A stretch of 64,000 nt of DNA. It comes from Lenzites betulinus (lineage: Eukaryota > Basidiomycota > Agaricomycetes > Polyporales > Polyporaceae). A model generated the notes under the pieces. The model was not told the origin of the DNA. It did not search any database and was given only the letters and a program-made list of their open reading frames with translations. How positions within the stretch are numbered: the stretch's first letter is position 1; the number at the start of each line of letters is the position of its first letter. This document shows positions 20,399 to 23,879 of the stretch, piece after piece. The stretch lies in contig JABYQU010000027.1 of assembly GCA_022264855.1 (NCBI GenBank), positions 1 to 64,000 of the forward strand, read 5' to 3'. The position numbers and the translations under genes were made by a program.

Positions 20399-20454
20399 GG
20401 GTTAGGTTTGGCCCATAATCTGACCCCTGTGACCCCTGGCATGTCCTCATAACC
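20399..20454 (+). repeat. 56-bp direct repeat, left copy
   Basis: Starts GGGTTAGGTTTGGCCCATAA and ends ATGTCCTCATAACC. It is identical to 23095-23150 and in the same orientation. Confidence 0.9.
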
Positions 20455-21540
20455 TTAATACCTTGATACCTTAATACCTTAATATCTTACTCTTTCACTT
20501 TTAAAAACTTTTAACTCGCTTTTCACACTCCCTAACACCCAAACACTCCTTAACAAACTTAGCTTACCCCTCTTGACACTCCTTAACACTCTGTAACACT
20601 CTGTACCACTCCCTAACAAACTTAGCTTACCCCTTACTTACTCCCTAGTAACCCCTTAACACCTAAGCTTACTCACTCTTACTCTCCCTTAACACTCCTT
20701 ACAACTCCCTAAGCTTAGCCCTACTACACACCTACTACTCCCTTAACACCTAAGCTTACTTACACTTACTCACCTAGTACACTCTGACACTACTTACCCA
20801 CAGCTTACTTGTCCCTTACACTCACTCACTCACTGGCTACACCACAAGTGGTCGCATTTTTTGACACTTGGTAGTCTTACTTGTCACTTGTTAGCACTGT
20901 GTTAGTAGTCACTTGTAGTCTGAGCTACTAGTGTGCTTTGTAGTGGTTGCTAGCAGTGTGTTGACTCACTTGTTGCATCTCACACTGGGTTGACACTAGT
21001 TGCTAGTGCTGCTTGACTTCGCATTTTTTGCTTACTTGACTAGTAGCTGTTACTTGCTGCAGTATCTGAGTACACATTTGCTGGTAGTCTGACTAGTGTG
21101 GCGCATTTTTTAGGTTTTGGGTGACATGATTACTTGGTGGTCACTGGGTTTGCTCAAGTAGTGGTTATAGTTGTAGTTTGGTTCGCATTTTTTGCTTACT
21201 GACTTGCACTAGTAGTCAAGTATACTAGCACCAGGTTGTACAAGTACACTTGTGTCGCATTTTTGGCTTACTGGGTGACATTGATATTCTGAGGGTTGGT
21301 CAAGTGTGGTCTAGTAGCAGCAGTAGTAGCATACTAGTCCGCATTTTTTGGTTGTAGTCAGTCATAAACTCTTTGTAGTTGACTCTAGTGCTGGTAGTTA
21401 GCAGGGTGAGTACACACTTTGCTTCGCATTTTTGCTTACTTGGCAGTCAGAGTTGCTTACTAGCAGTTACTTACTGCTTATGACTAGTTGGCCTACACTT
21501 TGCTTCGCATTTTTTGGTCTTGGCTGGCTTAGCTGATAAT
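20455..21540. repeat. Pyrimidine-rich tract and spaced CGCATTTTTTG motif
   Basis: 20455-20830 is a low-complexity run of CCTTAATAC, TTAACACTCC and AGCTTAC words. From 20866 the motif CGCATTTTTTG or a one-base variant recurs at about 20866, 21020, 21100, 21183, 21256, 21341, 21423 and 21503, about 80 bp apart (the first gap is double). The sequence between copies varies and is rich in CTAGTAG and CACTTG words. No gene seen. Confidence 0.7.
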
Positions 21541-22000
21541 CAGAGCTTGTAGGCCCATTAGATACCTACTAGTAGCACTTTGTTACATGTTTGTAGCCCC
21601 ATTAGTTCCGGAGTTTTTTAACTTACAAGTTTAGGGGGGGTCAATAATGTAAACTGTGACACAGGTGACATGGGTCATGTGATCTTGGTCTGCCAGACCT
21701 GGGTCACATGACCACTTGCCTTATCTGAACATGAACTGATGGCTGTCGCATTTTTTCACTAGCACAGCCACCTGACAATCTCAAAACGTCGGCCTATTAG
21801 ATCTAAACTAGTAGCACTTTGTTATGTACTAATAGCCCTACTACTCATTGAGATAAGTGACTATTAAAGAAAGGGGGGGGCGTTTCTGTAACTTGGACCG
21901 TCAGTGAAGGTCACCGATTCACTCCGGAAAAGTTGTGGCCTGTAGCCAGAGCTTATCTGAATCTAGATCACCTACTTACATACTCTCAGGTGTTGTGGTG
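21541..22000. repeat. Diverged tandem pair, about 240 bp, with poly-G and nested hairpin
   Basis: CTAGTAGCACTTTGTTA occurs at about 21569 and 21808 in similar surroundings, each followed by a run of 7-9 G (near 21634 and 21871). Between them lies a nested hairpin: outer arms GGTCATGTGA (21673-21682) and TCACATGACC (21714-21723), inner arms GGTCT and AGACC (21687-21699). Confidence 0.65.
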
Positions 22001-22138
22001 ATGGAGCAATGGCCCTTGGAACTGTGCAAAAAGTCGACATTTGGAGGTGTGCACGGATCCAAGGCCAGTGTGGGACGGGGAAACATCGCACAGCCATGAG
22101 AGCTACATTTCTGAATAGCCCTGAAGCAGGGCTATAAT

Positions 22139-22740
22139 CTAAGGCCTTGGATCCAAGGGGTTGTCCAGGTGGTTGTGGAGCAATGGCCTTGGATCCGTGC
22201 TTGGATCCATTTGGTTACGCTTGGATCCGACGGATCCAAGGCTGTTGTGAGACGGGGAGAGCAGCTATCACCCTAAAACCAAGTGCATATTGTAGCCCTG
22301 AATCAGGGCTATAGAATAAGGCCTTGGATCCATGGGGTTGTCCAAGCGGTTGTCCCATAAACTGCCTTGGATCCGTGCTTGGATCCATTTGGATCCGGAA
22401 TCTACATGTAGATTCCAGTATTATATGGATAGGGCTATGATCTAAGGCCTTGGAACCGAGGAGTTGTCCAGGTGGTTGTTGAGTAATGGCCTTGGAACCG
22501 TGCTTGGAACCTTTTGTGTACGCTTGGAACCGACGGTTCCAAGGTCATTGTGGGACGGGGAGAGCAGCTATGACCATGAAACCAAGTGCATCTTGTAGCC
22601 CTAAATGAGGGCTATAGGAATATGCCTTGGAACATGGGGTTTCTCAAAGTGGTTGTCCCATAAACTGCGTTGGAACGTTGCTTGGAACGATTTGGAACGA
22701 CTTTTACAATTGTAAAAGCCGGGTTATATGGATAGGGACA
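22139..22740. repeat. Tandem 300-bp dimer with covarying hairpins
   Basis: Copy A (22139-22441) and copy B (22442-22740) align along their whole length. Wherever A has GGATCC, B has GGAACC, GGTTCC or GGAACG. The stem CTTGGATCC-GAC-GGATCCAAG in A (22220-22240) becomes CTTGGAACC-GAC-GGTTCCAAG in B (22523-22543). At the matching place near each end, A has GGAATCTACATGTAGATTCC (22397-22416) and B has CTTTTACAATTGTAAAAG (22701-22718); both are perfect palindromes. A diverged half-copy precedes A from about 22009. Confidence 0.9.
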
Positions 22741-22817
22741 CCATCAAGTCCAGGTATAATGCTGTCCCAGCATCGGCAATGCCGTTGGAGAGACTCCATA
22801 CCCACCCTTAACCGCCC

Positions 22818-22848
22818 GTCTCTCCATCGGCATTGCCGATGGAGAGAC
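22818..22848. repeat. Perfect palindrome with 15-bp arms and one central base
   Basis: GTCTCTCCATCGGCA, one T, then TGCCGATGGAGAGAC. A half copy without the left arm lies at about 22770-22796. The outer part (GTCTCTCC/GGAGAGAC) resembles the core of the minisatellites, here split by a longer inner stem. Confidence 0.9.
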
Positions 22849-23094
22849 ACCCCCAGCACTTGCTATAACACACATTCCCCCATATATCCCATCATGTTTT
22901 TGGCCCTCTTTTCCCCGTTTCTATCCTGCCCCTGCCTTAACCTCTGCTTTAACCCCCAGTTTGGCCAAATCCTACCCCTACCCTGCCCTAACCCCCACCA
23001 GGGTTACAAAAAGAGACATTTAATAGGTAATTATGTGGGTTCCGCACAAATCTACCTGCGGTGGACGCTTACCTATGCTCAGCTCTACACCATA

Positions 23095-23150
23095 GGGTTA
23101 GGTTTGGCCCATAATCTGACCCCTGTGACCCCTGGCATGTCCTCATAACC
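23095..23150 (+). repeat. 56-bp direct repeat, right copy
   Basis: Identical to 20399-20454, same orientation, 2696 bp downstream. Together the two copies bound the hairpin-rich, gene-free segment. Confidence 0.9.
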
Positions 23151-23879
23151 CTAAGTACTCTGGTCCGGGCTCATATTTGGGCTCGGCGTACTCGTAGGGA
23201 TGGTGGAGGGTAGTAAGGACTTGCCCTCCACCGGGCGCCTGAGTTCCGAATACTCGGGACACCGTACGCGGTGATATTACATACATGCGGCTATCCGCAC
23301 ACTAATATGCGCACATGTATGTATGGTCCGATACCATAGATATTAGTTGTGCATTTTGCACAACTAATAGCTCATGTAGGAGCGCATAGTACGTGCTCCT
23401 TACAATCAAGTAGCTCAAAGTCAAATTAAGACGTCCAGTAACTACAAGGTGCCAAGTGTCTCAGACGATTCCCTGATGTAATATATACCCGGCCGACACA
23501 ACTGGACTACATGCACACGACTCGCACCCTGTTGATCTGCCTCTGAGACGGGACATGCATATATATTGTCCCAGACCCAATAGTCCGCGTCGCACTCTAC
23601 AGCCGCAGACAGACAGAACACAACGTCATACACCCGCTTTACATCTCGGTCTATACCTGTAAGTATATCAACGTACACCCCCATGTACACACACTCGCAG
23701 TCCTACCCATTACCATATTACGTGCCCAAGATGTCATAGTCGTCACTGAGGTCGTACAAGAGCCCGTTGCAGAAAGGCACAGAGATTGTTCGTGTAAATG
23801 TGCATCTGCTGACAGTGAGCCTCAGATCCACAATCGTTCGCACACACGGTGAAGGGGCACTCACCACATACCGCCGACA
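23151..23879. other. Gene-free stretch with a cluster of hairpins
   Basis: GGTGGAGGG (23202-23210) pairs with CCCTCCACC (23224-23232). TATTAGTTGTGCA-TTT-TGCACAACTAATA at 23341-23369 is a perfect 13-bp stem. ACATACATG and CATGTATGT surround GCGGCTATCCGC near 23280-23325. The part after 23430 is ordinary unique sequence downstream of the next gene (stop at 23880). Confidence 0.7.

Follow-up and report, generated by a model that had tools for sequence, protein, structure and literature searches.

Copies A and B, two neighbouring units of about 300 bp in Lenzites betulinus, each form the inner end of a separate subtelomeric element; the two elements differ and are placed head to tail, and the copies are not a tandem duplication as the sequence-only reading had described them. 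The elements are of the telomere-linked-helicase kind, and it is their centromere-side ends that are seen here. They have a fixed end and a constant orientation, and near this end they carry an array of 9-bp words which changes in concert from class to class. Base pairing fails to explain this concerted change. From sequence comparison, we consider it moderately likely that the zinc-finger helicase encoded by the element binds these words, and that a replacement of its finger makes them switch. The analysis covered the window, that is the whole stretch of 64,000 nucleotides (C29:1-64000), together with the genome it belongs to, which comprises 37.4 Mb in 108 contigs.

Copies A and B as ends of subtelomeric elements

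The two copies align in register along about 300 bp, as had been reported, at a distance of 303 bp and with 85% identity over 266 bp. The sequence at C25:530510-530812 is identical to copy A across all 303 bp, and its 5' side passes straight into TTAGGG repeats. For copy B, identity amounts to 99.3% with the lone copy of locus L019 and to 97.7% with the copy of L018. A and B are therefore the ends of two different elements that have become juxtaposed. Copy A has its 5' end toward the contig end, the telomere side, and its 5' limit is approximate; at its fixed end, other copies stop at the same base and continue with unrelated sequence. Copy B is truncated at its 5' side and is joined to the fixed end of A with a common AG, and another element, X, is joined to the fixed end of B with one common G at 22735. 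The coordinates of all these features are collected in Table 1.

Table 1. Features of copies A and B and of the adjoining element X (positions in the window)
Feature	Position	Strand	Remark
Y element copy A, gene-less, 5'-shortened, inner part of a subtelomeric element	20484..22432	+	homologous stretches in 18 loci
3'-terminal unit of copy A, class W1 (CTTGGATCC), palindrome P1	22128..22432	+	
3'-terminal unit of copy B, second element, class W2 (CTTGGAACC), palindrome P2	22433..22735	+	
A words, direct	22146..22154, 22188-22196, 22200-22208, 22220-22228, 22323-22331, 22366-22374, 22378-22386, 22388-22396	+	
A word, inverted	22232..22240	-	
B words, direct	22449..22457, 22491-22499, 22503-22511, 22523-22531, 22626-22634, 22669-22677, 22681-22689, 22691-22699	+	A positions + 303
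B word, inverted	22535..22543	-	
12-bp stem, word at -244 with inverted word at -201	22187..22241	+	
9-bp stem with GAC loop	22220..22240 (A), 22523-22543 (B)	+	
Terminal palindrome P1 of A	22397..22416	.	perfect
Terminal palindrome P2 of B	22701..22718	.	perfect
Constant tail TTATATGGATAG, ends exactly at the fixed end	22421..22432 (A), 22724-22735 (B)	+	
Element X, 3' end, telomere-facing, 5'-truncated	22735..23024	+	13 near-full-length genome matches

The unit is the last 300 bp or so of a longer repeat, here named Y. Exact matches to its constant tail number 32 in the genome, including 25 subtelomeric and 7 internal ones. All 25 non-H7 matches lie at most 30 kb from a contig end with the fixed end pointing inward; since C71 and C93 share one end (L010/L011), they represent at most 24 distinct ends. 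This subtelomeric location is the one that characterizes telomere-linked-helicase elements. The sequence beyond the fixed end varies from copy to copy, and the 5' ends of Y are cut at various points, some of them beside CCCTAA repeats (L009, L010 and L016a). C25, C56 and C75 have TTAGGG at their right ends, and left contig ends mostly have no telomere repeats.

Several observations on the assembly and on the tail may be recorded here. TTAGGGx4 gives 218 forward matches across the assembly and 1 reverse match; telomere repeats thus occur almost only in one contig orientation, an oddity of the assembly. Positions 1-2530 of the window are 99.5% identical to C25:526000-528540, about 4 kb from the C25 telomere, and the start of the window is therefore probably close to a chromosome end. 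The seven internal tail matches belong to another interspersed family of seven copies (L065-L071, on C13, C19, C25, C41, C46, C51 and C87), which has CA|TC before it and the palindrome CCCCTAATTAGGGG just 5' of the same 12-mer TTATATGGATAG; it is possibly a relative, or the likeness may be due to chance.

We then compared Y ends with undisturbed neighbour sequence. Such sequence is known for 13 of the 26 listed Y ends (for L009b and L020 from the same locus), a count which leaves out L019, whose alignment starts 8 bases in, and L013_4631, whose last G is missing. The element end matches the undisturbed sequence by at least 2 nt in 8 of these 13 junctions, by 1 nt in 3 and by 0 nt in 2, the chance of a match of at least 2 nt being about 1/16 per junction. 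At the six X junctions (end GAGACATTTAAT) the common bases are AT in five and T in one. In none of the 8 informative junctions among 19 was the displaced outer half found, the only matches being short or weak repeat ones (26-87 bp). The informative junctions are B with X, L014b, L016a, L016b, L023 and L026 for Y, and L014 and L017 for X; on the outer side the search extended to the contig end in four of them (B with X and three on C56/C75) and over about 4.5 kb in the other four. The remaining 11 of the 19 are uninformative: in these, the outer half belongs to Y or X, sits in the locus itself or falls beyond the outer sequence covered. A missing outer half together with 2-nt matches agrees with addition of the elements to chromosome ends that have broken or eroded.

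Known retroelement features were sought within the following limits. None of the RVT_1 matches listed lies in the fetched Y and X stretches (150 of 168 candidates scored, the outer parts of the long copies being partly fetched), and hammerhead ribozymes are absent from positions 20400-23200 of the window at E<=5 and from ten loci at the gathering threshold. The fixed end carries neither telomeric repeat nor poly(A).

Three further kinds of fixed end were met at these loci. Element X faces the telomere and has, besides its fixed end, hairpin repeats CATCGGCATTGCCGATG and minus-strand ORFs; in one of these ORFs a PHD-like finger scores weakly, below cut-off (E 0.008). Element Z, seen at about 20453 and 23145 of the window and also in L019 and L026, has the fixed end GGCATGTCCTCATAAC, which is in places followed by telomere-like CCTAA. 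The fourth fixed end, CACTCGACTTTTGCCCCTGTG(T), occurs in L019, L020 and L022, where the Y copies joined to it have varying truncation points.

Word classes and base pairing

Each aligned unit contains 7-9 copies of the 9-bp word at fixed positions, one of them inverted. Alignment A1 consists of 19 units, in each of which nine word sites were scored; L009_4509 (equal to the window A unit), L011 (equal to the L010 unit), L026 (a duplicate unit) and five ends that are short or decayed (L009_3646, L013_4631, L016_2209, L025_146 and L025_282) were left out. The words fall into five classes, namely W1 CTTGGATCC, W2 CTTGGAACC, W3 CTTGCATCC, W4 CTCGCATCC and W5 CTTGTACCC, and the steps W1-W2, W1-W3 and W3-W4 are single-base changes repeated along the array. 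Among the 171 word cells, 149 hold a word of the unit's own class, 5 a word of another class and 17 no word. With 149 of 154 readable words being own-class, the concerted change first noticed between A and B extends to their relatives.

The sequence-only reading also stated that GGATCC words in A become GGAACC or GGTTCC in B at every site. The T to A change at word base 7 is indeed found in 9 of 9 words, but the full word is as described in 5 of 9 only: B has five GGAACC/GGTTCC words, one GGAACA (22626-22634) and GGAACG in the last three (22669-22699), so that 4 of 9 B words are changed at the last base too. The upstream A word, at about 22015, is GGAACT, i.e. B-like.

Twenty-one differences in the unit are fixed between the 5 copies of W1 and the 6 of W2. 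Nine of them lie in the 81 word columns, one per word and always on the same base, with none in the remaining 72 word columns; the other 12 are spread over 203 columns outside the words. Within classes, differences amount to 4/810 comparisons in words and 85/1,974 in other columns for W1, 58/1,170 and 203/2,940 for W2, 15/480 and 36/1,218 for W3, 4/80 and 28/203 for W4, and 0/73 and 1/201 for W5. Words are thus clearly better kept than other columns in W1 and W4, little better in W2 and not better in W3. Class purity has exceptions: all 4 W3 copies retain a W1 word at -286, and L017 (W2) has a W5 word at -109. Beyond the nine sites scored, the W1 copies having the stretch also show a W2-like word, at -417. 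All five classes come apart in an unrooted tree built from the non-word columns, with support of 1.00 for W5, 0.94 for W1, 0.81 for W3, 0.61 for W2 and only 0.23 for W4.

Selection on paired structure had been suggested as a cause of the concerted change. The 9-bp stem was found as described, with CTTGGATCC-GAC-GGATCCAAG in A and CTTGGAACC-GAC-GGTTCCAAG in B. Over the 19 aligned units, the long stem (-244/-201') is paired in 99.1% of cells with 4 pairs doubly changed, and the GAC hairpin (-212/-201') in 95.9% with 3 pairs doubly changed; the former is found in all five classes and the latter is missing in W5. Both stems exceed shuffled and slid controls in cells paired and in covariation score, and independent variation of their two sides was not seen, the stems staying paired. 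However, far word pairs that form no stem score equally. The inverted word and the word at -44, 156 columns off and with no local stem, are 97.7% paired with 3 pairs doubly changed, and the inverted word and the word at -66 are 89.9% paired with 4. Because non-stem words covary equally, pairing fails to explain the concerted change; covariation is here a by-product of all words being alike and does not serve as a sign of structure.

In this light, selection on RNA or single-stranded DNA hairpins that maintains pairing appears very improbable, even though the pairing values of both stems and folding z-scores from -2.3 to -7.6 speak for it. The words at -109, -66, -54 and -44 of W2-W5 are mutually non-complementary and yet switch with the others, and in W3/W4 the long stem has lost its outer part. 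The z-scores for the two strands are -6.8/-7.6 in A and -2.3/-2.7 in a W3 copy, about equal in both copies folded, and this missing strand bias also argues against a folded single strand.

The terminal palindrome behaves differently from the words. As had been observed, a perfect palindrome in A is replaced by an unrelated perfect one in B. Across the units 92.1% of its cells are paired and 6 of 8 pairs are changed on both sides, so a true pairing constraint is likely here, as judged from the alignment. Stepwise compensation is represented by one A-T to T-A change, in L012; for the most part the palindrome and the next few bases are swapped between copies as a block of about 25 bp. Palindrome types are independent of word class, with P1 in W1, W2 and W3, P2 in W1, W2, W3 and W4, P3 in W2 and W4, and P4 in W5 only. 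It thus forms a cassette of its own, which has passed from one word class to another.

Helicase gene and finger module

Two long copies, L012 (W1, within C25) and L015 (W2), have at least 4.3 kb in common at 92% and contain a gene that is read toward the telomere. Its first exon shows an OrsD domain above cut-off (E 8.4e-7 in L012 and 1.4e-6 in L015) that spans two C2H2-like fingers at the N terminus. A RecQ match at C25:509053, 3.9 kb downstream on the same strand, lies below the family cut-off. The peptide encoded by L012 is contained in P0011, a homologue from Lenzites betulinus with annotated OrsD, DEAD and Helicase_C domains, and a profile of homologues matches RecQ5 and BLM (E 5e-7 and 1.7e-5). 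The RecQ-type helicase with OrsD that marks telomere-linked-helicase elements is therefore present, in the two long copies only. The gene is absent from the window copies and has 4 matches in the genome in all; none of these 4 belongs to a W3 or W4 copy, and in the W5 copy (L014) the gene is cut at about the start of finger 2 or inside it. The complete fingers to compare in this genome are two only, those of W1 and W2.

L012 and L015 differ at 348 of 4,304 aligned columns, and 31 of these differences fall within the 93 columns of finger 2. This is the most divergent 90-bp stretch of the pair; 21 of 4,211 overlapping windows reach its value, all at the same spot. Among its 30 codons there are 9 nonsynonymous and 10 synonymous changes and 1 indel, against 11 nonsynonymous and 20 synonymous changes in the other 236 codons. 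Nonsynonymous changes are in excess in finger 2 (p=6e-5), and the ratio of nonsynonymous to synonymous changes is not different from the rest (p=0.55). Since synonymous changes are raised as well, the pattern fits replacement of a module and not point-by-point selection, and finger 2 looks like a replaced module.

Homologues from other species vary in this region as well. In Trametes polyzona, where the finger region is hypervariable between paralogues, P0001, P0002 and P0016 have 47-58% identity over 101 finger-region residues and 92-94% over the next 220, and P0005 is identical to P0016 in their 21-residue overlap in the finger region. Complete cross-species pairs have 35-50% identity in the finger region against 60-71% beside it. 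Such faster change of the finger region than of the adjoining part is what the word classes would require. The middle domain (L015:7382-8593 and homologues) contains the motifs GRTTEL, HKMR, LRRKHAG and GHS...RYG, which we take to resemble those of tyrosine recombinases such as Crypton-like elements have. Of 16 homologues, several with incomplete gene models, 4 have all four motifs and 15 have one or more; structure models of this domain had low confidence and gave no PDB match for a recombinase fold.

Origin of the word classes and related systems

For the binding-site reading, the link between protein and words comes from one full contrast, W1 against W2, and it is suggested by the coincidence of word switch and finger divergence in this pair. 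The fingers would bind the words of their own element; once the finger module has been replaced, the whole array would be selected to follow, and all words would change together. The array probably brings the helicase to its own inner end, where it may serve spread of the element or repair of the chromosome end. Elements would be added at broken or eroded chromosome ends through their fixed end with pairing of about 2 nt, and different classes would therefore come to be stacked head to tail, like A and B. Against this reading, the gene strand is opposite to that needed by RNA-primed end addition, W3 words are no better conserved than spacers, and the W1 word at -286 is kept in W3. More tentatively, and with some doubt, the arrays may form a private address code, in which a hypervariable helicase finger reads its cognate 9-bp array, a swap of the finger forces the array to switch, the classes of these selfish elements are mutually exclusive in compatibility, and broken chromosome ends are healed by the fixed end through two-nucleotide pairing, possibly via the recombinase-like domain.

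The words may instead be bound by a host factor for transcription, silencing or replication, with classes reflecting different factors or escape in an arms race. The persistence of word arrays in copies that lack the gene, A and B among them, agrees with this, but under a conserved factor five coexisting word classes would not be favoured, and the most divergent stretch of the compared pair is a DNA-binding-type module of the element's own protein; we regard a host factor as unlikely. It is rather improbable that gene conversion or template switching has spread one word variant through the unit without selection. The unit is made of internal repeats (D1-D4), and VANC target motifs are reported, in the part of the source cited here, to change together via repeat turnover (PMC5735166). 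However, with those 12 fixed differences spread over 203 spacer columns and nine words all altered at one base, conversion tracts would need to be a few bases long and to end at word edges, and intermediates with spacer blocks moving with the word are absent from the 19 aligned units.

The fixed end itself has other possible origins. Reverse transcription from a chromosome 3' end, in the style of HeT-A or Terminons, with the words as RNA-level packaging or recognition sites of the reverse transcriptase, would account for the orientation, the 5' truncation, the telomeric repeats at some 5' ends (L009, L010, L016) and the 2-nt terminal pairing. The fetched elements lack a reverse transcriptase match among the 150 of 168 candidates scored, the gene runs the opposite way, and an inverted word suits duplex DNA and not an RNA-binding site, which makes this origin distinctly unlikely. 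Helitrons end in 3' CTRR and use an A|T target. Y resembles a plain Helitron 3' end in its palindrome 16-17 nt from the end and in the T that follows 11 of 26 ends, and Helitron proteins occur in the genome (26 matches). But its tail ends in ATAG instead of CTRR and no T follows 15 of the 26 ends, so the combination of CTRR end and A|T target is not found; together with the constant telomere-facing orientation, the common AG at junctions and the missing outer half, this makes a Helitron hardly credible.

Fungi were known by 1998 at the latest to have RecQ-like helicase genes in subtelomeric positions, according to the cited portions of two reports (PMC7473861, PMC10532341). The telomere-linked helicases described there, UTASa/UTASb of Ustilago maydis and those of Agaricus bisporus var. 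burnettii, are of the same family as the present ones, which they resemble in being subtelomeric, in having OrsD and RecQ-type parts and in existing as many truncated copies. The same portions describe no word array, fixed inner end or hypervariable finger module for them, and report only the helicase core domain for the Agaricus subtelomeric RecQ proteins that were examined (PMC10532341, PMC7473861).

By analogy, the closest principle to the switching of Y words seems to be that of VANC and VANDAL elements in Arabidopsis, an anti-silencing system in which the element's protein binds its motif and removes methylation. As far as the cited part of the source goes, short non-coding motifs of about 8-9 bp differ there by subfamily and change together, and they are bound by a fast-evolving protein of the element (PMC5735166). 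The VANDAL motifs spread by tandem-repeat turnover (PMC5735166, same part), whereas Y word sites keep their positions and spacers. The two systems are also unlike in host, in protein family and in chromosomal setting; in a Pfam search the VANC domains DUF1985 and DUF287 were absent from four long-copy ORFs, which gave OrsD and weak C2H2 matches instead. The class-specific word array and the hypervariable finger offer a direct and cheap binding test. If the binding-site reading is true, this would be the second case of evolution of a self-recognition code after VANC/VANDAL, now at chromosome ends, and it would supply a natural series of matched changes in C2H2 fingers and their sites as well as a route by which elements cap broken chromosomes.

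In their arrangement, Y elements resemble Terminons (EN-deficient Penelope-like elements) and HeT-A, for which the cited sections describe telomere-facing head-to-tail arrays, precise 3' attachment and 5' truncation with telomeric repeats (PMC6431247, PMC3846280, PMC5537684). Unlike these, Y has no reverse transcriptase match in the fetched stretches (same 150 scored candidates), and its fixed end is without poly(A), hammerhead or telomeric-repeat tail; the 3' hammerhead with reverse-complement telomeric repeats typical of Terminons does not occur in the window stretch and ten loci searched. FoTeRs and MoTeRs are likewise fungal chromosome-end elements situated beside telomere-linked helicases, and the cited part of their description gives them as non-LTR retrotransposons in telomeric repeats (PMC12857005), whereas Y attaches to diverse sequence.
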